From: Maritimibacter sp.
GTDB lineage: Bacteria; Pseudomonadota; Alphaproteobacteria; Rhodobacterales; Rhodobacteraceae
DNA: 64,000 nt
Direction of reading: 5' to 3'
Assembly: GCA_017792445.1 (NCBI GenBank)
Contig: CP051232.1
Span: 2,950,001 to 3,014,000 of the forward strand
In this document: positions 2,181 through 60,586 of the stretch, in pieces
Numbering within the stretch: the first letter of the stretch is position 1
How the letters are laid out: each line of letters starts with the position of its first letter
Program-made: the position numbers and the translations under genes
Notes under the pieces: generated by a model
Told to the model about the DNA's origin: nothing
The model's database searches: none
The model's input: the letters and a program-made list of their open reading frames with translations, nothing else

Positions 2181-3542
2181 GGCGGTGGCGGCGCGGGCGC
2201 GGCGGGCGAATTCGGCCCAGAAGCGCCAGAGCAGGGTGAAGGCCGCGACGGCAAGGCCGCAGACCAGCCCGACCCAGACGCCTGCCGCCCCGAAGTCCAG
2301 CACGAAGCCGAAGACAAAGCCGGCGGGGAAGCCGAAGACCCAATACGAGATGGCGGCAAGGATCATCGGGGTCCGCGTGTCCTGAAGGCCCCGCAGCAGT
2401 CCCAGCGCCACCACCTGCAACCCGTCCACCGTGTTGAACAAGGCGGCCACCGACAGCAGCACGACGCCGATGGCAAGGATCTCGGGCCGGCGCGGGTCGG
2501 CAGGATCGACGAACAGGCCGATCAGAACCTCGGGCACGCTGAGATAGACCACCATCGTGACGATGGCGAACAGGATCGACAGGCCGGTGACGGCGCGCGC
2601 GCCCAGCCGCAGGAACTCCATGTCGCCGCGCCCCAGCGCCGCCCCGGCGCGTACCGTCGCCGCCTGGCTGAGGCCGAGATGCACCACGAAGGTCAGCGAC
2701 GCGAGCTGGATCGCCACGCCATGCGCCGCCAGCGGCACCGGTCCAAGCCAGCCCATCATCACGGCGGTCGCGGCGAACAGGCCGGTCTCGGCGAGGTTGG
2801 TCATGCCGATGGGCCAGCCAAGGCGGAACACCTGCCAGAAGGCCTCCCAGTCCGGGCGCCAGAAGCGGGCGAACAGCGTGTGCTCGTGCGTGACCTGCGC
2901 CGCGTAGACCGCGAAGGCGAGGAAGGTCAGGGCATGCACCGACAGCGAGGCGGTGGCGGCGCCGGCGATGCCCATCTCGGGCAGGCCCAGCTTGCCGAAG
3001 ATCAGTACGTAGTTCAGCGCGATGTTCAGCGCGGCCCCCGCCAGCGTGATCCAAAGCACCACCTGCGTGCGTTCCAGCGCCGACAGGTAGCTTTTCAGCA
3101 CCATGACCAGCAGGGCGGGCACCATCGCGAAAGAGGTGATGGCAAGGTAGGTCTGCGCCAGCGCCGCCACGTCCGGCGTCTGGCCCATCAGTTCCAGCAG
3201 CGGCCGCGACCAGATCAGCGCGGGCATCACCGCCAGCCCGTAGAGGATCGAGATCCACATCCCCATGCGCGTCACCCGGCGCACTTGCCGGTCGTCACCC
3301 GACCCGATGGCCTGCGCGGCCATGGGCATCACCGCGAAGGCAAAGCCCGAGCCGAGGATGAAGATCACGAACCAGATGGAATGCGCCAGCGTCGCGGCGG
3401 CCAGCGCCTCGACATCGTACCAGCCCAGCATCAGCGCGTCGGTCACGCCGATCGCCACTTGCGCAAGATGGCTGCCGATCAGCGGCAGTCCAAGGCCCAG
3501 AAGGCCCATCACGTGGGGTCGATATGTGCGCCAGATACTCAC
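2169..3542 (-). CDS. MATE family multidrug efflux transporter
   Basis: 457-residue polytopic membrane protein of the MATE/NorM family, which exports drugs or metabolites in exchange for Na+ or H+. The start MSIWRTYRPHVMGLLGLGLP leads straight into the first hydrophobic helix. The sequence holds two homologous MatE halves (about residues 15-175 and 240-400) with roughly 12 membrane segments. Typical features include DALMLGWYD near residue 35 and the small-residue-rich helices of each half. The C-terminus ends ...ATATDN with the stop created inside the GTCAGTT tandem repeat. It converges with the SLC13 permease. Substrate is unknown. Confidence 0.9.
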   Translation of the reverse strand: MSIWRTYRPHVMGLLGLGLPLIGSHLAQVAIGVTDALMLGWYDVEALAAATLAHSIWFVIFILGSGFAFAVMPMAAQAIGSGDDRQVRRVTRMGMWISILYGLAVMPALIWSRPLLELMGQTPDVAALAQTYLAITSFAMVPALLVMVLKSYLSALERTQVVLWITLAGAALNIALNYVLIFGKLGLPEMGIAGAATASLSVHALTFLAFAVYAAQVTHEHTLFARFWRPDWEAFWQVFRLGWPIGMTNLAETGLFAATAVMMGWLGPVPLAAHGVAIQLASLTFVVHLGLSQAATVRAGAALGRGDMEFLRLGARAVTGLSILFAIVTMVVYLSVPEVLIGLFVDPADPRRPEILAIGVVLLSVAALFNTVDGLQVVALGLLRGLQDTRTPMILAAISYWVFGFPAGFVFGFVLDFGAAGVWVGLVCGLAVAAFTLLWRFWAEFARRARAATATDN

Positions 3543-3593
3543 CCGCCGCCTCTAGGCCAGCACGTGCGACGGGGCAAGCCCCGGCGGGCGGTG

Positions 3594-4220
3594 TCAGGCG
3601 GCGGGCTTGCGCGCGACGAAGTCGATCAGCGCGGCGGTGCCGTTGTGGCCCTCGCCGCTGTCGACATGGGCGTCGTAATCGGCCTCGTGCAGCACCTCGT
3701 AGCCGGGGAAGGCGGCGTGCAGCAGGTCCAGCGTGTACATGTTCTCGACCTTGCCGGGGCCGCCGGTGCCATAGTCGACCTGCCGTGGCGCGAAGCCATG
3801 GATCATCAGCAGGCCGCCGGGTCTGACCGCCGCGTCGAAGCCGTGGAACACGGCTGGGCGATCGTCCGGGGACAGGAACTGGAAATAGACGCCCAGCACC
3901 GCATCGTAGCTTTCAGCAGCCCAGGCGTAGGACAGGATGTCGGCGTACTGGAATTCGACGCGGACCCCTTCCTGCGCGGCCAGTGCGCGGGCCTTGCCGA
4001 GCCCGACCTGCGAGTTGTCCATCGCGGTCACGTCCAGCCCGCGCTTGGCCAGCCAGACCGAGTTGCGGCCTTCGCCATCGGCGACGGCCAGCACGCGGGC
4101 GTTGTCGGGGATGTGGTGCGCCTGCTGTTCGACGAAGCCGGCGGGTCGGGTGCCGAACAGGTAATCCGACCGGTCATATCGGTCGTCCCAGAAACTGGCG
4201 GGGGCGAAATCGTCTGTCAT
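3594..4220 (-). CDS. class I SAM-dependent methyltransferase
   Basis: Small cytoplasmic methyltransferase of about 208 residues. I take the ATG at 4220 (MTDDFAPASFWDDRYDRSDY) because the open frame upstream (to 4256) adds a non-conserved tail. The SAM-binding motif I is visible as VLAVADGEGRNSVWLA, followed by an acidic residue at the end of the second strand in VTAMDNSQ. The FWDDRY and GEGRNS signatures place it near the TehB/thiopurine-methyltransferase-like group, in which some members act on tellurite or small thiols. The actual substrate is not evident. It stands alone on the minus strand, 50 bp upstream (in transcription sense) of the MATE gene. Confidence 0.8.
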   Translation of the reverse strand: MTDDFAPASFWDDRYDRSDYLFGTRPAGFVEQQAHHIPDNARVLAVADGEGRNSVWLAKRGLDVTAMDNSQVGLGKARALAAQEGVRVEFQYADILSYAWAAESYDAVLGVYFQFLSPDDRPAVFHGFDAAVRPGGLLMIHGFAPRQVDYGTGGPGKVENMYTLDLLHAAFPGYEVLHEADYDAHVDSGEGHNGTAALIDFVARKPAA

Positions 4221-4339
4221 GCAGGCAGAGATAGCCCCGCCTGCATGATTTGCCATGGGCTACGACGCCGGTGCGGCGAATTTTCCGCGAAAATCCGCGC
4301 TGTCCGTCCGCAGCCGCCCGTCCGCAGCCGCCGGTCGGG

Positions 4340-4768
4340 TCAGTTGACCGAGACGAGCTCCACGTCGAAGGTCAGCGTCTTGCCGGCCAGCGGGTGATTG
4401 GCGTCCAGCGTGATCTCGCTGTCGGTGGCTTCGGTCACGGTGACCGGGATCGCCTGGCCCTGCGGGGTCTGCATCTGCAGCTGGGTGCCGGGCTCGGTCG
4501 GGATGTGATCCGGGATCTGCTCGCGCGGGACGGCCTGCACGCGGGCCGGGTCATGGGCGCCGTAGGCATCCTCGGGGGCGATCTTCACGGTCTTCTTCTC
4601 GCCGACTTCCATGCCGGGCATCTCGCGGTCCAGGCCGGGGATGATCTGGCCGGACCCGACGGTGAACTCAAGCGGGTCGCGTCCCGCCGAACTGTCGAAC
4701 TGCGTGCCGTCGTCGAGGGTTCCTGTGTAATGGAGACGAACGGTATCGCCGGTTTTCACCTGGGTCAT
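4340..4768 (-). CDS. FKBP-type peptidyl-prolyl cis-trans isomerase (SlyD/SlpA-like)
   Basis: 142-residue cis-trans prolyl isomerase and probable chaperone. The ATG at 4768 is chosen because it is preceded by AGGAG at the right distance and begins MTQVKTGDTVRLHYTG, the usual start of the fold; the upstream extension is not conserved. FKBP core residues appear in LHYTGTLDDGTQFDSS, then LEFTVGSGQIIPGLD. The flap carries the inserted IF-type domain (about residues 70-120) typical of SlyD/SlpA proteins. No histidine-rich metal-binding tail is present, so it is closer to SlpA. It lacks a signal peptide and should be cytoplasmic. Confidence 0.9.
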   Translation of the reverse strand: MTQVKTGDTVRLHYTGTLDDGTQFDSSAGRDPLEFTVGSGQIIPGLDREMPGMEVGEKKTVKIAPEDAYGAHDPARVQAVPREQIPDHIPTEPGTQLQMQTPQGQAIPVTVTEATDSEITLDANHPLAGKTLTFDVELVSVN

Positions 4769-4906
4769 AAGGGCTCCTGGATAGGGGGGGAATTGCCGAG
4801 GCCGCATCCTGCGGGTGCTCGTGGTTCATCCCGGAATCGTCCCATCCGAGCCGCCGAATGTAAACCCCGCCGTCCCGCGGTGGGGCAAGCCCTTGTCCCG
4901 ATACGC

Positions 4907-4930
4907 AAAACCCGGCCACGAGGGCCGGGT
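4907..4930 (-). terminator. rho-independent terminator of the SPOR gene
   Basis: An 8-bp perfect stem (ACCCGGCC / GGCCGGGT, positions 4910-4930) with a 5-nt loop is followed on the minus strand by TTTT. It lies 24 bp past the stop of the minus-strand SPOR gene. Confidence 0.8.
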
Positions 4931-4953
4931 CTGCAACGCGGATGCGTTGGTCT

Positions 4954-5949
4954 TTACTGGCGGGTCGTCGCCCCGGTGTACCCGGCGCCGCGCACCATGT
5001 TCAGCCCGTTCGACAGGCCGCTGGTGCTGGCGAAGGGACCGGCCAGAAGCACGGTGTACGAGGTGCCACCGCGCTTGGTCGTCGACAGGTTCATCGGCAG
5101 GCCAAGCGGTGACAGCCCGGCAGCGGCAGCGCGCGCCTTGTCAGGGGTCGAGAACACGCCGACCTCGACGAACCGGTGCCCCGTGGGCGGCGTGTTCTTG
5201 GTCGAGACGGTGTAGGCGGGCCCGTGCGCCGTTTCGTGCGTCAGGATGTATTCGCGGTCCGGCGTCGGGCGGCCGTTGATCACCTTGTAGCGCTCGGTCT
5301 CGGGCGTCACCAGCTTGCGCGGAACGCCGGCGGTCCAGACCAGCCGCATCTGCACGAAGCCCTCGGGGGTGACGTGGCCTCGGTACGGATTGAACCGGCC
5401 GTCTTCGGGCTCGAACGCCATGCGATAGCCGGGCGGCGGCGTGATCGCGGGCGGTTTCGGCACGTGGATGACGCGGGTGCCATCGGCCAGCACGTAGGGG
5501 CCGGGGCCGCAGCCCGAGGTGCAGACCACGCGGGTCGCGGGCGGCGGAGCGGTGACCGTGACGGTGCGCGGCGGCGGCGTCGTGCGGACGATGTGCGTCG
5601 GCGCCGGTGCGGTGGCGGCGGGCGGCGGTGCCGTCACGACGCGCGGTGCGGGTTCCGGCGCAGGCGGCGCAAGCGGAGCGGGCGCCGGAACCGGTGCGCT
5701 GGCAAGCGACGGCGTGTAGCCGCACAGAAGCTGGCGGTCGCTGCTGACGCGTGGCACCCATGTCACCGCGCCGTCCAGACCGGCACGCACGAAGATGCAG
5801 CCGTTGCTGTCGACGTACTCCTTCCCCGTGTAATCGGTCGGCGGAATCTCGGCAGGGCCGGAAATGTCGTCCACGGACTGTGCCTGCGCCGTTCCGAGAC
5901 CGGCGACAAAACACAGGGCGGTGGCGGTAATTGTCTTAAATCGTTTCAT
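4954..5949 (-). CDS. exported SPOR-domain protein
   Basis: 331-residue secreted or periplasmic protein. The ATG at 5949 gives a clean signal peptide (MKRFKTITATALCFVAGLG, cleavage after AQAQ); an in-frame ATG at 5982 would spoil it. A proline/alanine-rich linker lies around residues 85-140, two short cysteine-containing segments flank it, and a SPOR domain occupies roughly the last 75 residues (FVEVGVFSTPDKARAAA ... YTVLLAGPF). SPOR domains bind denuded peptidoglycan, often at division sites. Unlike FtsN it has no N-terminal membrane anchor, which suggests a free periplasmic cell-wall protein. It is monocistronic, with its own terminator. Confidence 0.8.
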   Translation of the reverse strand: MKRFKTITATALCFVAGLGTAQAQSVDDISGPAEIPPTDYTGKEYVDSNGCIFVRAGLDGAVTWVPRVSSDRQLLCGYTPSLASAPVPAPAPLAPPAPEPAPRVVTAPPPAATAPAPTHIVRTTPPPRTVTVTAPPPATRVVCTSGCGPGPYVLADGTRVIHVPKPPAITPPPGYRMAFEPEDGRFNPYRGHVTPEGFVQMRLVWTAGVPRKLVTPETERYKVINGRPTPDREYILTHETAHGPAYTVSTKNTPPTGHRFVEVGVFSTPDKARAAAAGLSPLGLPMNLSTTKRGGTSYTVLLAGPFASTSGLSNGLNMVRGAGYTGATTRQ

Positions 5950-6010
5950 AATGTGCCCCCACACATGATGTTTTTCCACCATGGACGGATTCTGCCTGTG
6001 GGTAAAGTAG

Positions 6011-6032
6011 GTAAAGCGGCAAGCCGTTTTAC
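6011..6032 (-). terminator. hairpin at the end of the cdd-deoA-deoB-add-upp operon
   Basis: Inverted repeat GTAAAGCGG / CCGTTTTAC with loop CAAG and one G-U pair. It overlaps the TAA stop of upp (6029-6031), so the last codons of upp form part of the stem. The T-tract on the minus strand is weak (CTTTACC). Confidence 0.5.
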
Positions 6033-6661
6033 TTGGTGCCGAACATCCGGTCGCCCGCGTCGCCGAGGCCCGGAACGATATAGCCTTTCTCGTTCAGGTG
6101 GTCGTCGAGCGCGGCGGTGATGATCGGCACGTCGGGGTGCGCCTCTTTCATGTGAGCGACGCCCTCGGGGGCGGCAAGCAGGCACATGAAGCGGATGTCT
6201 TTTGCCCCGGCTTCCTTAAGCAGGTCGATCGCGGCGGCAGAGCTGTTGCCGGTCGCCAGCATCGGGTCGACCGCGATGGTCAACCGCTCGCCAAGGTTGT
6301 CGGGGACCTTGAAGTAATACTGCACGGGCTGAAGCGTCTCTTCGTCGCGATAAAGACCGACAAAGCCCACTCGGGCGGCGGGGATCAGTTCCAGCACGCC
6401 GTCCAGCAGCCCGTTGCCCGCCCGCAGGATCGACACCAGCGCCAGTTTCTTGCCCTCGATCACCGGCGCTTCCATCTCGCACAGGGGCGTTTCGATGGTC
6501 TCGGTGGTCATCGGCATCTCGCGCGTGACCTCGTAGGCAAGAAGGTGGCTGATCTCGCGCAGCAGACGGCGGAAGGACGCGGTCGAGGTGTCCTTCTTGC
6601 GCATGATCGAAAGCTTGTGCTGCACCAGCGGGTGTTTCACGACGGTCAGGTGGTCATACAT
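6029..6661 (-). CDS. upp: uracil phosphoribosyltransferase
   Basis: 210-residue cytoplasmic enzyme converting uracil and PRPP to UMP. The PRPP-binding loop is seen as [14 protein letters not shown], and the uracil-binding C-terminus as [15 protein letters not shown]. Length and end are typical of bacterial Upp. The start codon overlaps the end of add by 8 nt, so it is the last gene of a translationally coupled nucleoside-salvage operon. Its job here is to capture the uracil released from pyrimidine nucleosides by the upstream phosphorylase. Confidence 0.96.
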
Positions 6662-7646
6662 CGGCAGGCTCCAGTTTCTTCAGCACGCGCGTTCGGGTCG
6701 CCTCGTCGCAGAAAGCGGCGTTCGCTGCAATCCGCGCGAGGTCGCGGAAATCGTCTTCTTCCCACTCGAAGGTTTCCGACAGGCGGTCGTATTCGGACTT
6801 CATCGTGGTGTGGAAGAAGGGCGGATCGTCGGTCGAGACGGTGACCTTCACCCCGCGTTTGCGGAGTTCGGCGATGGGATGCCTGGCCAGCGAGGGGTAA
6901 ACGCCAAGGAACACGTTCGAGCCGGGGCAGACTTCCAGCACCACCTCGTCCTCGGCCAGCCGGTCGACCAATGCGAGGTCCTCGATCGCGTGGACGCCAT
7001 GGCCGATGCGCGACGGCCGCAGCGCGTCCAGCGCGTCGCGCACGCTGGCCGCGCCGCCCCATTCACCGGCGTGAACGGTGATGCCCAGCCCGGCCTCGCG
7101 CGCCATGTCGAAGGCATAGGCGAAATCCGCGGGCTTGCCCTTCTTCTCGTCGCCCGCCATGCCGAATCCGGTCAGCCAGTCGCCCGCCGTCTCGGCGGCG
7201 CATAGGGCGGTCTCTTTCGCCTTCTCCGGTCCGAAATGGCGGATGCAGGTGACGACGCCGCGCATGGTGATGCCCATCGTGCGCTCGGCCTCTTCCGCCG
7301 CTTCCCGTATGGCCGCAAGGTATTCGCGCCACGCGCCGACATCGCGCCCGCCGCAGAAATCGGGGCTGATGAAGGACTCGGTATAGATCACGCCGTTCTT
7401 CGCGCTTTCTTCCAGCACCGCCAGCGTCAGCCTTTTGTAGTCGTCCGGGCTTTGCAGGGTCGAGGTGGCGGCTTCGTAGACCTCGAGAAAGTGCCAGAAA
7501 TCCCGGTAATCATAGCTGCCGTCTGGCTTAAAAATGCCGGATATGTCCAACTTCTTCTCTTTCGCCAGTCCCGCGATGAACTGCGGAGGCGCGCCGCCTT
7601 CAAGGTGCAGATGCAGTTCGACTTTCGGCAGATCCGTAACAGTCAC
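6654..7646 (-). CDS. add: adenosine deaminase
   Basis: 330-residue zinc hydrolase deaminating adenosine/deoxyadenosine to inosine. The start is a GTG at 7646 that overlaps the deoB stop by 4 nt (GTGA) and directly precedes the conserved zinc motif [10 protein letters not shown] (His12, His14). Further metal/catalytic residues appear in [17 protein letters not shown] and VSTDDPPFF. The open frame extends upstream to 7889 but that part reads through deoB and is not conserved. Its place between deoB and upp fits purine-nucleoside salvage in the same operon. Confidence 0.94.
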
Positions 7647-26267: not shown

Positions 26268-26906
26268 ATGCTGACCGCGATCATCGACTACGAATCCGGC
26301 AATCTGCATTCCGCCGAGAAGGCGTTCCAGCGCATGGCCGCAGAGACCGGCGCGGGCGAGGTGATCGTCACCGACAAGCCCGAGGACGTCGCGCGGGCCG
26401 ACCGTCTGGTGCTGCCGGGCGATGGCGCGTTCCCGGCCTGCCAGCGCGCCTTGTCCGCCGTCGACGGCGTGGCCGAGGCGATGACCGAGGCGGTGATGCA
26501 GCGTGGCGTGCCGTTCATGGGGATCTGCGTCGGCATGCAGATGCTGGCCACCACGGGCCACGAGTACGAAGAGGTCGCGGGGCTGGGCTGGATCGGTGGC
26601 GACGTGGTGCACATCGACCCGTCCGACCCGTCGCTGAAGGTGCCGCACATGGGGTGGAACGACCTTGTCATCGACAATCCGCACCCCGTGCTGGACGGGA
26701 TCGGAACCGGTGAACACGCGTATTTCGTCCACTCTTACCACTTCCGCGTCGCCGACCCGGCGCACCTGCTGGCGCATTGTGAATACGGCGGGGCGGTCAC
26801 GGCCATCGTGGGGCGCGACAACATCGTGGGCACCCAGTTCCACCCCGAGAAAAGTCAGGCGGCCGGGCTGCGGCTGATCGGCAATTTCCTTGGGTGGAAA
26901 CCCTGA
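26268..26906 (+). CDS. hisH: imidazole glycerol phosphate synthase, glutaminase subunit
   Basis: 212-residue class I glutamine amidotransferase that supplies ammonia to HisF for imidazole ring closure. The nucleophile is Cys87 in GICVGMQM. The catalytic His/Glu pair is in FHPEKSQ, and the oxyanion loop in LPGDGAF. The start MLTAIIDYESGNLHSAEKAF is typical. It should form the HisHF complex with hisF, which here lies downstream on the opposite strand. The stop is followed after 30 bp by the 62-nt repeat element. Confidence 0.96.
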   Translation: MLTAIIDYESGNLHSAEKAFQRMAAETGAGEVIVTDKPEDVARADRLVLPGDGAFPACQRALSAVDGVAEAMTEAVMQRGVPFMGICVGMQMLATTGHEYEEVAGLGWIGGDVVHIDPSDPSLKVPHMGWNDLVIDNPHPVLDGIGTGEHAYFVHSYHFRVADPAHLLAHCEYGGAVTAIVGRDNIVGTQFHPEKSQAAGLRLIGNFLGWKP

Positions 26907-26936: not shown

Positions 26937-26998
26937 GGGGGCTCTGCCCCCGTCGCGTTCCGCGACTCCCCCGAGGTATTTCGCAAGAGAAGAAGCAG
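26937..26998 (+). repeat. 62-nt dispersed structured repeat, copy A
   Basis: Order of parts: GGGGGC-TCT-GCCCCC hairpin (26937-26951), GTCGCG-TTC-CGCGAC hairpin (26952-26966), then a conserved tail TCCCCCGAGGTATTT followed by a purine-rich end (AAGAGAAGAAGCAG). It is 56/62 identical to the copy at 37966-38027. Four of the six differences are two compensatory pairs in the second stem. It sits between the convergent stops of hisH (30 nt before) and hisE (13 nt after). Confidence 0.85.
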
Positions 26999-27011: not shown

Positions 27012-27329
27012 TCAGCCCTTGCGCGCGGCTTTCTCGTCGATGCCCGAGGTGCCCTCGCGGCGGTCAAGTTCGCCCAGCACGTCAGCAAGGTCCACGTCGC
27101 GCGCCGCCAGCATGACGAGAAGGTGGTACAGCACGTCCGCCGCCTCGTAGGTCAGGTTGGCGCGGTCGTCCTTCGCGGCGGCGATGATCGCCTCGATGGC
27201 TTCCTCGCCGAACTTCTCGGCGCATTTCTCCGGCCCCTTCGCCAGCAGCTTCGCGGTCCACGAACTGTCGGGGTCGGCGCCCTTGCGGGACGCGATGGTG
27301 GCGGCGAGGCGGTCGAGCGTGTGGGTCAT
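27012..27329 (-). CDS. hisE: phosphoribosyl-ATP pyrophosphatase
   Basis: 105-residue MazG-like pyrophosphohydrolase, second step of histidine synthesis (PR-ATP to PR-AMP). The ATG at 27329 begins [17 protein letters not shown]. The metal-binding helix [14 protein letters not shown] and the [13 protein letters not shown] motif are the MazG/HisE signature. The start overlaps the hisF stop by 4 nt (ATGA). It is monofunctional, not fused to HisI. It ends 13 nt from the dispersed repeat. Confidence 0.95.
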
Positions 27330-35177: not shown

Positions 35178-37952
35178 ATGCCCGACGGAAGCCAGACGAA
35201 GACGGTGACTTTCACCCTCGACGGCGACGAGATCACCGTTCCGCAGGGCACGACCATCTGGGACGCCGCCCATGGCAGGGGCCTGACCATCCCGCATCTG
35301 TGCCACAAGCCCGCGCCCGGCTATCGCCCCGACGGCAACTGCCGCGCCTGCATGGTCGAGGTCGAGGGCGAGCGCACGCTGGCCGCTTCGTGCATCCGCG
35401 AGGCGACCGACGGCATGGTGGTCAATTCCGCCAGCGACCGCGCGGTGAAATCGCGTCGGATGGTGATGGAACTTCTGGTCGCCGACCAGCCCGAGGCGCC
35501 GCACGACCGCTCGTCGCACCTGCACGACATGGCCGCCGCGCAGGATGTCACCGACAGCCGCTTTCCCCGGATCGAGCCCGACCGCGTGCCGCTGCTGGAC
35601 GACAGCCACGTCGCCATGCGCGTGAACCTCGACGCCTGCATCCACTGCAACCTGTGCGTCCGCGCCTGCCGCGAGGTTCAGGTCAACGACGTGATCGGCA
35701 TGGCGGGGCGCGGCCACGACGCCCGCATCGTGTTCGACCAGCTCGATGACATGGGCGCCTCGACCTGCGTCGCCTGCGGTGAATGCGTGCAGGCCTGCCC
35801 GACCGGCGCGCTGATGCCCGCCACCGTTCTGGACGAGGCGCAGCAGGGCGACAGCGCCGACTATGACCGCGAGGTCAAATCGGTCTGCCCCTATTGCGGC
35901 GTCGGCTGCCAGTTGTCATTCAAGATCAAGGACGACAAGGTGAAATACGTCGACGGTGTCGATGGCCCCGCGAACGAGGGGCGTCTGTGCGTCAAGGGCC
36001 GCTTCGGCTTTGACTACATCCACCACCCGCACCGCCTGACCAGACCTTTGATCCGTCGCGACGACGCGCCCGCCAAGGGGCTGAACGTCGACCCCGCCAA
36101 CTGGCAGGCGCATTTCCGCGAGGCGACGTGGGACGAGGCGCTGGACCGCGCCGCCGGGGGGCTGGCGAAGCTGCGCGACGACGCGGGCACCCGGGTGGCG
36201 GGTTTCGGGTCGGCCAAGTGCTCGAACGAGGAAGCCTACCTGTTCCAAAAGCTGATCCGGCAGGGCTTTGGCCACAACAACGTCGACCACTGCACACGCC
36301 TGTGCCACGCCTCATCGGTGTCGGCGCTGATGGAGAACGTGGGCTCGGCGGCGGTGACGGCCACGTTCAACGAGATCGAGAATGCCGACGTCGCCATCGT
36401 CATCGGCGCCAACCCGATCGAGAACCATCCCGTCGCGGCCACCTTCTTCAAGCAGTTCTCCAAGCGGGGCGGCAAGCTGATCGTCATGGACCCGCGCGGT
36501 GTCGGCCTGCGCCGCTTCGCGTCCCACATGCTGCAGTTCAAGCCGGGCGCCGACGTGGCGATGCTGAACGCGATCATGCACGTGATCGTCGAAGAGAAGC
36601 TGTACGACGACCAGTACATCGCCGGGTTCACCGAGAATTTCGACGCGATGAAGGACCACCTGAAGGCCTTCCCGCCCGAGAAGATGGCCGAGGTCTGCGG
36701 CATCCCCGCCGAGACCCTGCGCGACGTGGCCCGCACCTTCGCCACCGCGCGGGCGGGCATGATCTTCTGGGGCATGGGGGTCAGCCAGCACATCCACGGC
36801 ACCGACAACTCGCGCTGCCTGATCAGCCTTGCGCTGATGTGCGGCCATGTCGGCCGCCCCGGCACCGGGCTGCATCCGCTTCGGGGGCAAAACAACGTGC
36901 AGGGCGCGTCGGACGCGGGGCTAATCCCGATGTTCCTGCCCGATTACGCGCCGGTGGGCGACGACGGCGTCCGCTCGCTGTTCCGCGACCTGTGGGGCTC
37001 TGAATTCAGCCCCGACAAGGGCCTGACCGTGGTCGAGATCATGGACGCGATCCACGCGGGCGACATTCGCGGCATGTATATCCTCGGCGAGAACCCGGCG
37101 ATGTCCGACCCTGACGTCGAACATGCCCGCGACGCGCTGGCGAAGCTGGAACACCTCGTGGTGCAGGACATCTTCCTGACGGAAACGGCGAACTATGCCG
37201 ACGTCATCCTGCCCGCCGCCGCATGGCCCGAGAAGACCGGCACCGTCACCAACACCAACCGTCAGGTCCAGATGGGCCGCCCGGCGGTGCCGCCGCCCGG
37301 CGAAGCGCGCGAGGACTGGTGGATCGAGGTCGAACTGGCGAAGCGACTGGGTTTGCCGTGGACCTACGCCCACCCGCGCGAGGTCTTCGCCGAGATGAAG
37401 CGCTCGATGAAGTCCTTCGACAACATCACGTGGGACCGTCTGGAGGCCGAGGCGGTGACCTATCCGTCGCTCTCCCCCGAGGATCCGGGGCAGCCCATCG
37501 TGTTCGGCGACGGTTTCCCCCGCGCCGGCGGCCGCGCCCGGTTCACGCCCGCGAACGTGGTGCCGCCGGACGAGCTGCCCGACACCGACTATCCGATGGT
37601 GCTGATCACGGGCCGCCAGCTGGAACACTGGCACACCGGCTCGATGACCCGGCGCGCCACGGTGCTGGATGCGGTCGAGCCCGAAGCGAACTGCTCGATG
37701 CACCCGTCGACGCTTCGCAATCTCGGGATCGAGGCGGGCGGCATGGTCCGCCTGACCACCCGCCGCGGCACGCTGGTCGTCATGGTCCGCGAGGACCGCG
37801 CCGTCGCGCCCGGCAACGTGTTCCTGCCCTTCGCCTATGTCGAGGCGGCGGCGAACATCCTGACCAACCCGTCGCTCGATCCCTACGGCAAGATCCCCGA
37901 GTTCAAGTTCTCGGCCGTCCGTGCGGAAAAGGTCGCCGAAGCCGCGGAGTAG
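35178..37952 (+). CDS. fdsA: NAD-dependent formate dehydrogenase alpha subunit
   Basis: 924-residue molybdenum (bis-MGD) enzyme oxidising formate to CO2. Order: plant-type [2Fe-2S] domain (Cys42, 55, 58, 72), two ferredoxin-type [4Fe-4S] motifs (CIHCNLCVRAC at 154-164; CVACGECVQAC at 197-207), the molybdopterin-domain cluster (CPYCGVGC, then Cys271) and the catalytic site HCTRLCHASS. Cys376 occupies the position of selenocysteine in E. coli FdhF, so no Sec machinery is needed. The molybdopterin-dinucleotide-binding domain is at the C-terminus. The ATG at 35178 has AAGGA upstream. No fdsC or fdsD follows; the next gene is on the other strand. Confidence 0.93.
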   Translation: MPDGSQTKTVTFTLDGDEITVPQGTTIWDAAHGRGLTIPHLCHKPAPGYRPDGNCRACMVEVEGERTLAASCIREATDGMVVNSASDRAVKSRRMVMELLVADQPEAPHDRSSHLHDMAAAQDVTDSRFPRIEPDRVPLLDDSHVAMRVNLDACIHCNLCVRACREVQVNDVIGMAGRGHDARIVFDQLDDMGASTCVACGECVQACPTGALMPATVLDEAQQGDSADYDREVKSVCPYCGVGCQLSFKIKDDKVKYVDGVDGPANEGRLCVKGRFGFDYIHHPHRLTRPLIRRDDAPAKGLNVDPANWQAHFREATWDEALDRAAGGLAKLRDDAGTRVAGFGSAKCSNEEAYLFQKLIRQGFGHNNVDHCTRLCHASSVSALMENVGSAAVTATFNEIENADVAIVIGANPIENHPVAATFFKQFSKRGGKLIVMDPRGVGLRRFASHMLQFKPGADVAMLNAIMHVIVEEKLYDDQYIAGFTENFDAMKDHLKAFPPEKMAEVCGIPAETLRDVARTFATARAGMIFWGMGVSQHIHGTDNSRCLISLALMCGHVGRPGTGLHPLRGQNNVQGASDAGLIPMFLPDYAPVGDDGVRSLFRDLWGSEFSPDKGLTVVEIMDAIHAGDIRGMYILGENPAMSDPDVEHARDALAKLEHLVVQDIFLTETANYADVILPAAAWPEKTGTVTNTNRQVQMGRPAVPPPGEAREDWWIEVELAKRLGLPWTYAHPREVFAEMKRSMKSFDNITWDRLEAEAVTYPSLSPEDPGQPIVFGDGFPRAGGRARFTPANVVPPDELPDTDYPMVLITGRQLEHWHTGSMTRRATVLDAVEPEANCSMHPSTLRNLGIEAGGMVRLTTRRGTLVVMVREDRAVAPGNVFLPFAYVEAAANILTNPSLDPYGKIPEFKFSAVRAEKVAEAAE

Positions 37953-37965
37953 GGCGCGCGCCTTC

Positions 37966-38027
37966 CTGCTTCTTCTCTTCCGAAATACCTCGGGGGAGTC
38001 ACCGAAGGTGACGGGGGCAGCGCCCCC
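37966..38027 (-). repeat. 62-nt dispersed structured repeat, copy B
   Basis: Minus-strand copy of the element at 26937-26998. Parts on the minus strand are GGGGGC-GCT-GCCCCC, GTCACC-TTC-GGTGAC, then TCCCCCGAGGTATTT and the purine-rich end. It lies between the convergent stops of fdsA (13 nt from the purine end) and the aldo/keto reductase gene (30 nt from the GGGGGC end). Confidence 0.85.
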
Positions 38028-38057: not shown

Positions 38058-39020
38058 TCAGCCCGGTTTGTAATCCCGGTTCGCTTCCGGGTCCTCGACG
38101 GAATACGGCAGCTCTTCCAGCGCGTCCCAGACCTGATCGGGGACCTCGACGGACGCCCATTCCAGCGTCTGCGCCACGCGCTCGGGCTTCGATACGCCGA
38201 TCACGGTCGAGGCGACGCGCGGGTCGCGCATCGAGAATTGCAGCGCCACCGGGCCGGTCGCGATCCCTTGCGCCGCGCAGACCTCTTCGATCCGCCGCAC
38301 CGGGGCGAGCGCCGCGTCGTCGGCCTTCTGGTAGGTGATCATCGGCATCTCGGCGCTGCCCTTGGCCAGCACGCCAGAGGCATAGGGCGCCGCGTTCAGC
38401 ACCGCCATGCCCTGCGCGTCGGCATAGGTGAACATCTCGTCCGCCGCGCGGTTCAGCAGGGTGAAGCGGTTGTGCGAGATCAGCGTGTCGAAGGGGTACG
38501 CCTTCAGCAGCGGAAACATCACGTCGATGCGGCCCATCGCAAGGCCCACGGCCTGCGCCAGCCCCTCTTCCTTCATCTTGAACAGCTCGTCCATCGCGCC
38601 GCCGTCGCGGGTGATCTCGTCAAGGTCGCGGGCGTGTTCGGGGTCGTGCAGGTGCAGGACGGGGATACTGTCCAGCCCCAGCACCTCAAGGCTTTCTTCC
38701 AGCGAGGCGCGGGCGCGGGCGGCGTCGAAGCGGCCGGTCTCCATGTCGCGGTCCAGCTTGGTGGACAGCACGAACCCCTCGGGCAGGCCGCCCATCTCGC
38801 GGATCACCGCACCGATACGGCGCTCGCTTTCGCCAAGCCCGTAGGCGCGCGAGGTGTCGAGAAAGTTCGCGGGCCCGTCGAAGATCGCCCGCAGCGTGTC
38901 GCGGGCGCGGTCCTCGTCCACCGCGTAGCCATAGGTGTCGGGCATGTTGCCCAGCGCCGAGGTGCCAAAGCAAATGTCGGTCACCGAAAGACCGGTGTCG
39001 CGGATCTGTACGGTTTTCAT
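38058..39020 (-). CDS. aldo/keto reductase
   Basis: 320-residue NAD(P)-dependent TIM-barrel reductase. The ATG at 39020 starts MKTVQIRDTGLSVTDICFGT. Typical elements are FLDTSRAYGLGESERRIG with catalytic Asp/Tyr, FVLSTKLDRD with Lys, and LHLHDPEHARD with the His of the tetrad. The C-terminal cofactor region includes STVIGVSKPERVAQTLEW. The pattern is closest to the L-fucose/D-threo-aldose dehydrogenase branch. Substrate unknown. The open frame upstream to 39308 is antisense and not conserved. Likely one unit with the SDR gene 86 bp upstream. Confidence 0.88.
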   Translation of the reverse strand: MKTVQIRDTGLSVTDICFGTSALGNMPDTYGYAVDEDRARDTLRAIFDGPANFLDTSRAYGLGESERRIGAVIREMGGLPEGFVLSTKLDRDMETGRFDAARARASLEESLEVLGLDSIPVLHLHDPEHARDLDEITRDGGAMDELFKMKEEGLAQAVGLAMGRIDVMFPLLKAYPFDTLISHNRFTLLNRAADEMFTYADAQGMAVLNAAPYASGVLAKGSAEMPMITYQKADDAALAPVRRIEEVCAAQGIATGPVALQFSMRDPRVASTVIGVSKPERVAQTLEWASVEVPDQVWDALEELPYSVEDPEANRDYKPG

Positions 39021-41875: not shown

Positions 41876-43240
41876 TCAGTTGTGGGGCGGCGGCACGATG
41901 GCCCAGCCGCGGCCGGCCGCCACCTGCAACGCGGCCCAGTTCGCGGCCATGTCGCGGACCGACGCCGCCAGCGACAGCTGCGCCGAGGCAAGCGAGCGCT
42001 GGCCGGTCAGCAGGTCGAGAAGGGTGGTCGCACCGGCGTCGTAGGTCTGCTGCGACAGGTCCACAACGCGGGCGTAGGAAGTTACCGAGCCCTGTAGCGC
42101 CGACACCTCGCGCCGCGCCCGGCTGTAGGCCGACTGCGAGCTTTGGACTTCTTCGACCGCACCCAGCACCGATGCGCGCCATGTCAGCCGCGCCTGTTCG
42201 GCCTGTGCAATGGCCTGGTCGCGGTTGGCCAGCAGGACCGGCATGTTCAGCACCGGGATCGAAATCGAGGGCCCGAAGCTCCAGCTATTGGCGCCGTTGG
42301 TGATGCCGACGTTGCCGCCCAGCGACAGCGACGGATACAGCGCCGCCTCGTTCACGCCCACGCGGGCGACGGCGGCGGCATAGTCCTGCTCGGCAGAGCG
42401 GACGTCGGGGCGGTTCCGCAGCAGGTCGGCGGGGATGCCCGCGCCTGCGCCCGAATAGACGTTCGGCTGGCGGCCGCCCGCCTGAAGCTGGGTCTGGATC
42501 GACTGCACCGGCACCGCCAGCAGCGTGGCGATGGAATAGAGCGCGCTGTAATAGCCGCTTTCCAGCCCCGGCAGGTTCGCGCGGGCCTGGTTGTAGGCGG
42601 CTTCCGCCTGCGCCACGTCCAGCTGGGTCGACGCACCGGCGCCGAACTGTCCGCGCACCAGTTCAAGCGTCTCGGCCTGGCTGGCGATGGTGCCACGGGT
42701 CAGGGCAAGCGCCTGCTGGTAGTACCGCAGGTCGAGGTAGGCGGAGACCAGAGCGGACAGCACCGCCAGCCGCGCGGTGCCGACGCTGAGCTCGGCCGAG
42801 CGCAGGCTGGCCAGGGCGGCTTCGCGCTGGCGCTGCTCGCTGCCGAACAGGTCGATGATGATCGACGGGTTGAAGCCGACGCTGCGGGTCTCGGTGATGG
42901 CGACGCCGTCGCCGCCCTGACGGGTCCAGCCGCCGGTGACACCGCCCGACAGCAGGCCCGGAAGGCCGGTGGCGCGGGCGGCGGCCTGCGCCTCGTCGAT
43001 GCGGGCCAGCGCGGTCCGCACGTCGAGGTTCTGGCGCATCGCGGCGGCGACAAGCTGGTTCAGCATCTTGTCGTTGAACTGGAGCCACCACTGTTGGGCC
43101 GCGGCGTCGCCGATGGGCGCATAGGTGCCCTCGGCGAAGCTGTTGGCCAGAGAGATCCCGGGCGACTTGAAGTCCGGACCGACCGTGCAAGCCGCCAGCA
43201 GGGCGGGCACTGCGAGGGCAGTGAGTTTCAGACGGGGCAA
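41876..43240 (-). CDS. outer-membrane efflux lipoprotein (NodT/OprM family)
   Basis: About 454-residue TolC-like exit duct. The lipoprotein signal is [18 protein letters not shown], with the lipid-modified Cys followed by TVGPDFKSP, the usual NodT/OprM start. Two OEP repeats follow, each with long alpha-helical hairpin sequence ([37 protein letters not shown]). The start is a TTG: AAGGAGG (43248-43254) is 7 nt from the TTG at 43240 but only 1 nt from the TTG at 43246 that overlaps the pump stop as TTGA, so I prefer 43240. Third gene of the RND operon. Confidence 0.9.
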
Positions 43241-59266: not shown

Positions 59267-60586
59267 ATGCGCCTCTCTCGCTACTTCCTTCCGGTTCTCA
59301 AAGAGACGCCGGCCGAGGCCCAGATTGCCAGCCATCGCCTGATGCTGCGCGCGGGCATGATCAAACAGGCCAGCGCCGGGATCTACTCGTGGCTGCCGCT
59401 CGGCTACCGCGTGCTGCGCAACATCGAGCGCATCGTCCACGAGGAACAGCAGCGTGCCGGGCATATCCCGGTCCTGATGCCGACGCTTCAGTCCGCCGAC
59501 CTGTGGCGCGAGAGCGGCCGGTACGACGCGTACGGCCCCGAGATGCTGCGCATTCGCGACCGGCATGACCGCGACATGCTGTACGGCCCGACCAACGAAG
59601 AGATGATCACCGACATCTTCCGCAGCCACGTCAGCTCGTACAAAGACCTGCCGATGACGCTGTACCACATCCAGTGGAAGTTCCGCGACGAGGTGCGTCC
59701 GCGGTTCGGCGTCATGCGTGGCCGCGAGTTCCTGATGAAGGACGGCTACAACTTCGACCTGACCAAAGAGGACGCGCTGCACGCCTACAACCGGCACCTC
59801 GTCAGCTACCTGCGCACTTACGAGCGCATGGGTCTGCAGGCGATCCCGATGCGCGCCGACAGTGGCCCGATCGGCGGCGACGACACGCACGAGTTCCTCG
59901 TTCTGGCCGAAACCGGCGAGTCCGAGGTGTTCTATGACAGCGAGATCACCGATCTGAAGTTCGGCGACCGCGAGATCGACTATGACTCGGTGGAACAGTG
60001 TCAGTCCGTGCTGGAAGAGTTCACCAGCCGCTATGCCCGCACCGACGAAACGCACGATCCGGCGATCTTCGACCAGATCCCGGAAGAGCGCCGCCGCGTC
60101 GCGCGCGGCATCGAGGTCGGCCAGATCTTCTATTTCGGCACCAAGTATTCCGAGCCGATGGGCGCCACGGTGCAGGGTCCGGACGGCAAGCCCGTTGCGG
60201 TTCACATGGGCAGCCATGGCATCGGCGTCAGCCGGCTTGCCGGTGCGCTGATCGAGGCGAACCACGACGAGAAGGGCATCATCTGGCCTTGGGAAGTGGC
60301 TCCGTTCCATGTTGGCATCGTCAACGTGAAGCAGGGCGACGCCACCGCCGACGCCGCCTGCGAGGCGCTGTACAAGGAACTGACCGCCGCCGGGCTGGAA
60401 GTGCTGTACGACGACCGCGAGGAGCGCGCGGGCGCCAAGTTTGCGACGATGGACCTGATCGGCTTGCCCAAGCGCATCACCGTCGGCCCGCGCGGGCTGG
60501 AGAAGGGCGTGGTCGAACTGACCGACCGCCGCACCGGCGAAAGCGAAGAGATCAAGCCGGAGCTGGTTGCCGCCGCGCTGACCTGA
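59267..60586 (+). CDS. proS: prolyl-tRNA synthetase
   Basis: 439-residue class IIa synthetase of the short alphaproteobacterial type without the editing insertion domain. The ATG at 59267 begins [20 protein letters not shown] and follows AAGGAG. Motif 1: [20 protein letters not shown]; motif 2: [19 protein letters not shown]; motif 3: [15 protein letters not shown]. The C-terminal anticodon-binding domain starts near 345 ([10 protein letters not shown]). Short ProS lacks Ala-tRNA(Pro) editing, usually compensated by a free ProXp protein elsewhere. Followed by its own terminator. Confidence 0.97.

Follow-up and report, generated by a model that had tools for sequence, protein, structure and literature searches.

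The window, that is the whole 64,000-nt stretch of DNA analysed here, comprises bases 2950001-3014000 of a one-contig genome of 4,675,334 bases (4.68 Mb). Two copies of a short element, referred to as A and B, lie in this window, each between two convergent genes. The features are as follows, with gene names that are our presumption:

26268-26906 (+), gene 5' of copy A, presumably hisH-like
26937-26951 (+), copy A hairpin 1, GGGGGC-TCT-GCCCCC, 99.6% of cells paired
26952-26966 (+), copy A hairpin 2, GTCGCG-TTC-CGCGAC, both-side changes at 6 of 7 pairs among 46 copies
26968-26981 (+), copy A core CCCCC-GAGG-TATTT, from the core pattern
26982-26984 (+), copy A variable spacer N3 (CGC), from the alignment of copies
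26985-26995 (+), copy A tail AAGAG-AAGAAG (dialect 5-mer and AAGAAG)
27012-27329 (-), gene convergent with 26268-26906, presumably hisE-like; copy A lies in their 105-nt gap
35178-37952 (+), gene convergent with 38058-39020, presumably formate-dehydrogenase-like; copy B lies in their 105-nt gap
37969-37982 (-), copy B spacer CGG and tail AAGAGAAGAAG
37983-37996 (-), copy B core CCCCC-GAGG-TATTT
37998-38012 (-), copy B hairpin 2, GTCACC-TTC-GGTGAC, compensatory to copy A
38013-38027 (-), copy B hairpin 1, GGGGGC-GCT-GCCCCC
38058-39020 (-), gene upstream of copy B, which we take to be aldo/keto-reductase-like

No inverted pair in the window is longer than that of the two copies, 26937-26998 (+) and 37966-38027 (-), which match over 62 nt at 90% identity, and the compensatory stem differences that an earlier note on this DNA had read between them were confirmed (GTCGCG/CGCGAC versus GTCACC/GGTGAC). 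That note would have given up its reading had few further copies existed or had their stems differed without compensation. The whole genome contains 63 exact matches to the core CCCCCGAGGTATTT, or 89 if one mismatch is allowed, compared with 2 matches to the reversed core pattern used as control, and the stems covary, as detailed below. The copies are spread over both strands (43 forward, 46 reverse). A signal of replication polarity was rejected, with 14 versus 14 exact copies below 2.34 Mb, as counted by eye with base 1 assumed to be the origin. Extraction gave 88 distinct segments, the 89th place lying within a stretch identical to another. The duplicated stretch, at least 3 kb long, lies at genome positions 4333-7346 and 4644400-4647400 (L001, L061) and carries the element in both places; the identity holds over the part compared. 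A sister family with another tail (family 2) is also found in the genome, and the general pattern has 117 matches.

The element is built of hairpin 1 (GGGGGC-NNN-GCCCCC), hairpin 2 with a variable stem, CCCCC-GAGG-TATTT, three variable bases and AAGAGAAGAAG. Hairpin 1 was recognised by pattern in 86 of the 88 segments, and the N3 spacer measures 3 nt in 82 of these 86 copies and 4 nt in the remaining 4. The nearly invariant part is a 3' module consisting of the quad (GAGG here), TATTT, N3, a 5-mer and AAGAAG, which supports the earlier suggestion that the invariant unpaired tail resembles a binding site, here a putative one. A second hairpin class, GCGAGGGG-CCCCTCGC, occurs, as counted by eye, in 10 of 88 copies, 7 of them in tail-to-tail pairs. 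A third class, ending in GCCTCCGGCG directly 5' of the quad, was seen in several genera (for example L296, L297, L302, L309 and L317).

Genes were called with a purpose-written codon-usage gene caller. None of the 88 family-1 copies overlaps a called gene, and 47 lie between convergent genes. When both families were considered, the loci examined contained 130 distinct places (90 of family 1 and 40 of family 2), of which 66 are convergent, 31 tandem sense, 24 tandem antisense and 7 divergent, with 1 in a gene and 1 unclear. Gaps of at least 70 nt without an element in the same loci, which had been chosen for elements, and in the window were divergent in 41 cases, tandem in 45 and convergent in 3 (n=89). 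Divergent gaps are thus avoided by the elements (7/130 versus 41/89, p 9e-13). The strand preference in tandem gaps was not significant, either for both families (31:24, p 0.42) or for family 1 alone (23:13, p 0.13). In the window, nine of the ten element-free convergent gaps measure -19 to 63 nt and one measures 220, compared with 105 nt for both gaps that hold an element.

The one place within a called gene is a copy inside an 815-aa reading frame, which NCBIfam names XdhB (1244 bits, cut-off 849.5):

L268:3968-6415 (-), genome about 2163.7 kb, xdhB with an in-frame element in a variable linker

The alignment of this frame with XdhB of Rhodobacter capsulatus (1jro_B) falls into two blocks, covering residues 1-405 and 440-813. 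The first block ends with the element in translation, GGSAPAPAAPPRDISGPKKQ, and the residues after it have no counterpart in 1jro_B. In the congener NAT7 (described below), xdhB carries the same copy with that genome's own tail and the frame stays open, while in another genus (L204, CATOSB) a different element, with one extra quad base (GAAGG), lies in frame at the same place of xdhB. In-frame copies were thus seen in one gene in three genomes, and at 1 of 130 places in the genome under study. The linker, as delimited with our own pattern, is 64 aa long here, 27 in L204 and 46-52 aa in four element-free plasmid genes (two of Ruegeria, one each of Falsirhodobacter and Rhodobacter CZR27). Pseudorhodobacter has a long linker with no element, and the linkers of Paroceanicella, Azospirillum and Sinorhizobium are short. 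As judged from the protein sequence, the linker of R. capsulatus (GGLSAPPSPPEPIATKKTQ) resembles a translated element. A degenerate element in L324 near 530 (+), at about 2114.4 kb of the genome (a hairpin-like stretch and GGTATTT-GGG-AAGAGAAGAAG), lies opposite a long called frame and is perhaps a second copy inside a gene.

To assess covariation, 46 copies were aligned, so that each distinct hairpin 2 of 12-21 nt was represented once. The both-side changes in hairpin 2 amounted to 33 cells compared with 6.3 after shuffling, a number reached in 0 of 500 shuffles, and slid controls gave 2-11 cells. Further pair types in hairpin 2 were not above the shuffles (141 of 500 reached the observed number). 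Hairpin 1 showed no second standard pair type among the 46 aligned copies and is therefore uninformative on covariation. A mutational process that perfects palindromes, such as palindrome-correcting template switching, could mimic covariation without selection.

The earlier note had placed its stress on RNA structure. Its claim of covariation beyond mere copying is borne out by our analyses; the stress on RNA found no support. All loci together gave 103 distinct hairpin-2 strings, of which 97 formed a stem and 6 were dropped without one. With Watson-Crick pairs alone scored, the 97 stems contained 607-608 Watson-Crick pairs, no G.T, 5-6 A.C and 7 others; scoring G.T as a pair gave 4 G.T, and scoring A.C as a pair gave 9 A.C. 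RNA stems usually prefer G.U to A.C, and here G.T is rare and no commoner than A.C, so the palindrome seems to be kept at the DNA level. Together with the unbiased orientation in tandem gaps and the copy translated in xdhB, this favours a DNA palindrome rather than an RNA signal. The RNA fold scores give the RNA reading no help: z was -0.89 for copy A and -0.88 for copy B, where hairpin 1 is embedded in a longer alternative, and -2.13, -0.54 and -1.04 for three other copies.

The placement at gene ends raises the question of a specialised transcription terminator or 3' end, in which the hairpins and GAGGUAUUU would release the polymerase and a protein bound to the tail would act as a roadblock, by analogy with Pol I terminators. 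Consistent with this, 70 of 88 copies stand behind a gene read in the same sense, at a median of 21 nt past the stop, a count inflated by convergent gaps, which are sense either way. The 9 nt from C5 to the end of TATTT also match the usual distance from hairpin to 3' end. Eukaryotic Pol I terminators with a Reb1/TTF-I site share the order of hairpin, T-rich stretch, short spacer and fixed sequence, and the available part of PMC12366685 describes such a hairpin, T-rich stretch and Reb1/Nsi1 site. Unlike these terminators, the element is orientation-neutral in tandem gaps and has a copy translated in frame in xdhB, although translation can mask a terminator and this point is not absolute. G.U pairs, moreover, are not favoured in the stems. 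Measured against an intrinsic terminator, with its GC hairpin and a U run directly behind it, the picture is mixed: the hairpins are present, with only UAUUU after GAGG. Other genes of the window seem by eye to end in an ordinary hairpin and T-run, for example 41876-43210 (-), 4954-5874 (-) and 59267-60586 (+). Given the footprint of the polymerase, a roadblock on the tail would stall it upstream of TATTT. We regard such a terminator as possible but unlikely. An ordinary 3'-end signal that works on one strand fits poorly and is improbable on the evidence of placement, since tandem gaps show no strand preference (31 sense, 24 antisense) and the xdhB copy is translated.

A small RNA complementary to the tail was also considered and rejected. 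The genome contains 95 AAGAGAAGAAG places, 8 of which, by eye, lie outside the element list, and none was a candidate. Four of the eight are in called genes without TATTT in front. Among the leftovers, the place in L324 has GGTATTT-N3 in front, L322 is an intergenic degenerate element with CAAGGTACTT, the place in L060 is a class-II element with TACTT, and one in the window is inside a called gene.

The distribution of the element was examined in 149 sampled genomes of one family, which we take to be GTDB Rhodobacteraceae from the named congener contigs and their taxonomy. The pattern GNGNTATTTNNNNNNAGAAGAAG was found in 36 of the 149 genomes, with 0 control matches. A wider form of it was found in 78 (71 had no match) and the pattern GGAGTATTTNNNNNNNNAWGAAR in 73 (76 had none). 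With the union of the two wider patterns, 77 of the 149 genomes, our own included, carry at least five copies, while control matches for these patterns were at most 3 per genome. A sample of 289 genomes of the class included 4 of the family; the 285 outside it had at most 5 matches each to the one pattern used, controls were of equal size, and none of these genomes was clearly above control.

Among the matches listed, the 5-mer before AAGAAG is usually specific to the genome, being AAGAG in the genome under study. These dialects are the main surprise of the analysis and lay beyond the view of the earlier note. Tails elsewhere include CCAAG in G020 and ACCCA in G092 and G145, and mostly GCCCA in G128, CTCTG in G114, CGAAA in G095 and GACAA in G105. 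Two or three tails occur side by side in G010, G053, G099 and G128, again among the matches listed, and two or three dialects in one genome are not simply explained by a single factor. Chachezhania sediminis (L203, NZ_VOPH01000002.1; 4168, 7811 and 108) has GAGG-AAGAG, GAGG-GACCA and GGAG-AAAAG in one 8-kb stretch. Quad and tail are not strictly linked, since GAGG there also stands with GACCA.

These dialects recall the DNA uptake sequences (DUS) of Neisseriaceae. By analogy, the element might be an uptake tag whose local dialect would be preferred by a surface receptor, or by a receptor for competence or gene transfer agents, with recombination unifying the spelling. Both have a spelling that is strictly conserved inside each genome and varies as dialects from one genome to another, and both form inverted pairs; the available part of PMC3630211 describes DUS dialects in like manner, and two or three dialects in some genomes would also agree. 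The numbers differ greatly, as the 117 matches here are about 20 to 50 times fewer than the DUS counts of about 2200-5900 given in that part of PMC3630211. In addition, 1 of 130 places lies in a called gene, and DUS contain no hairpins, whereas in the copies inspected the element's tail follows either a hairpin or a stretch rich in C and G. An uptake tag is accordingly a very improbable reading.

Matching sites in relatives were used to follow single copies. The main congener is Maritimibacter sp. NAT7 (G149) of the same genus, a MAG with 10% listed contamination. Shared flanks were found for 95 locus pairs, which gave 72 distinct pairs of elements under a matching limit of 120 nt; NAT7 is the partner in 66. 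The family-1 comparison covers 44 of 49 pairs, 5 having been dropped with a shifted or changed tail register. In these pairs the 20-nt core is 99% identical. N3 is 54.5% identical compared with 43% after shuffling, and hairpin 2 is identical in 27% of pairs compared with 2.9% (0/500 shuffles in both cases), while hairpin 1 is identical in 41% versus 33%, which is not significant (38/500). The more frequent identity of hairpin 2 between orthologous sites than after shuffling indicates that the sites descend vertically with a frozen core. Positions were retained at 68 of 69 covered sites, a figure that is biased because the loci were chosen for carrying an element. The site of copy B behind the aldo/keto-reductase gene is kept in G149; the loci of G151 and G150 have no matching element, and G152 has only distant homologues. 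Behind hisH, 18 of 29 relatives' loci were informative, and these have a different sequence and no element.

In family 2 the tail itself has changed in place. It differs in 12 of 14 congener pairs, the changes from our genome to the congener being GACCA to GACAG in 7, GACCG to GACAG in 3, and GACGG to GACAG and GTCAG to GACAG in 1 each; because the NAT7 family-2 loci were fetched with a pattern that requires AGAAGAAG, is blind to GACCA and would overlook copies bearing the other tail, this comparison is biased. Loci chosen by family 1 only are free of this bias. There, family 2 reads GACAG in 4 of 4 cases (57 NAT7 stretches), compared with 3 GACCA and 1 GACGG in 80 of our own loci (p 0.03, in a small sample). 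In three further pairs the two sites carry different families: L025 and L164 share a class-II hairpin, and L259/L193 and L277/L191 could be neighbouring elements. L204 shows a swap in another genus. In the other congeners, among the matches listed of a search with 0 control matches, G151 has mostly RCCAG and G150 mostly RCCAG and GTCAG, while G152 has one copy with the tail AACCG. A decayed NAT7 copy (L246, matching L280 (+) 1490) reads GGGATATTT-GCG-GACCAAAGAC and is possibly a relic of an older tail that was not respelled. The palindromic DNA element is thus real and dispersed, and its genome-specific tail changes in place.

These pairs also bear on a purely selfish palindromic repeat, comparable to REP/BIME or to the palindromic elements of Rickettsia, which a transposase would have spread and gene conversion between copies would now homogenise. 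Dispersal, placement at gene ends and tail-to-tail pairs would all suit such a repeat, as would the in-frame copy in the variable XdhB linker (64 aa versus 46-52 aa without an element) and the 105-nt element gaps of the window, compared with at most 63 nt in nine of ten convergent gaps without one. Against it, hairpin 2 is identical in 6 of the 12 family-2 pairs that differ in tail (L250, L251, L255, L260, L262 and L268 with their partners), and a changed tail beside an identical hairpin is not expected from transposition or long conversion tracts. In family 1, the core is 99% identical between sites at which hairpin 2 and N3 have diverged. We therefore hold a purely selfish origin of the present pattern to be rather unlikely, the transposase searched for (Y1_Tnp) also having no match in the genome.

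The likeness to known repeats is partial. The earlier note had suggested that the element could be mobile-derived and REP-like. Its placement is indeed mobile-like and REP-like, and like REP/BIME with RAYT (TnpA-REP) it comprises small extragenic dispersed palindromes with inverted pairs and differences between species. The RAYT-type REP is not borne out: the Y1 (HUH) transposase PF01797 gave 0 matches in our genome (5 of 14 control genomes were positive), and GTAG as defined in the available part of PMC8266576 was absent from the 8 bases 5' of hairpin 1 in 86 copies. At these bases A is most frequent at -1 (52/86), and elsewhere G occurs in 30-50 of 86. Unlike REP/BIME, the part conserved here is the 3' tail, some 20 nt long, rather than a 5' GTAG, and positions are kept while the tail is respelled. 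Rickettsia palindromic elements are palindromic and can sit in frame inside a protein gene. The in-frame xdhB copy is shared with them; what sets the present element apart is that nearly all its copies lie outside genes and that its tail is spelled in a dialect specific to the genome.

That no formal family name was known to the earlier note agrees with the searches made. Rfam matched one tRNA only when the window was searched at the gathering threshold, and in six loci searched with E up to 1 it gave one sub-threshold match, in L074, away from the element. The element is not described in the available parts of the papers on DUS dialects (PMC3630211), TnpA-REP (PMC8266576), Rhodobacterales motifs (PMC8632094), stem-loop families (PMC2267715), TerminatorNet (PMC13020248) and Pol I termination (PMC12366685). 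Among the open-access papers listed in the literature searches there was no account of the element, and none of those listed for its core 9-mers was on this subject by title; an earlier description elsewhere is possible. The HRC-8-4 motif of Rhodobacterales, as presented in the available part of PMC8632094, is mainly one site between cco operons, terminator-like and with a U run. Both are structured intergenic motifs of the same order, but HRC-8-4 is not this repeat.

The reading that we prefer, and to which we would give close to an even chance, takes the element to be an ancient, dispersed palindrome with a tail that a putative genome-specific factor recognises on DNA. The spelling differs between relatives at matching gene positions, which suggests that something in the cell reads a DNA tag. 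The element would once have inserted at gene ends, which tolerate insertion, and would now be held in place. The tail would be the recognition sequence of a trans-acting factor that works on DNA, either duplex or a hairpin extruded in single-stranded DNA. As the specificity of this factor drifted, the sites would follow one by one, through selection at each site or a copying bias; the GACCG tails, which stand between GACCA and GACAG, may be intermediates of this process. Should the tail serve as a recognition site, every genome would state its own dialect, the factor could be found by comparing matched with mismatched tails, and one could trace between congeners how a protein coevolves with about a hundred sites. 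The near-identical gene-end repeats of a large bacterial family would then be explained.

A more far-reaching form of this reading is speculative and, in our estimate, doubtful. In it, the Rhodobacteraceae as a family would carry a system of DNA tags flanked by hairpins, up to about a hundred in each genome, read by a genome-specific factor and respelled in place as that factor drifts. Such tags would amount to a self-recognition code on chromosomal DNA, serving repair, chromosome handling, or exchange by competence or gene transfer agents. A code of this sort would be of a kind without description so far.

Similar sequences were also noted in other records. Six Paracoccus plasmid records have a similar hairpin part; in the megaplasmids NZ_CP038206.1 (593468-593526) and NZ_CP141053.1 (970024-970068) it is 88% and 96% identical over 56 and 45 query bases, respectively, and no feature is listed at either place. 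Two IMG/VR contigs (L228, L229) share both flanks and the element with the chromosomal L058, and probably represent host DNA or the edge of a provirus. Maritimibacter-like sequence with the element also occurs in a MAG (NZZG01000006/133; L196, L194) filed under Pimelobacter, which is an actinobacterial name; contamination or a wrong label is the probable cause.
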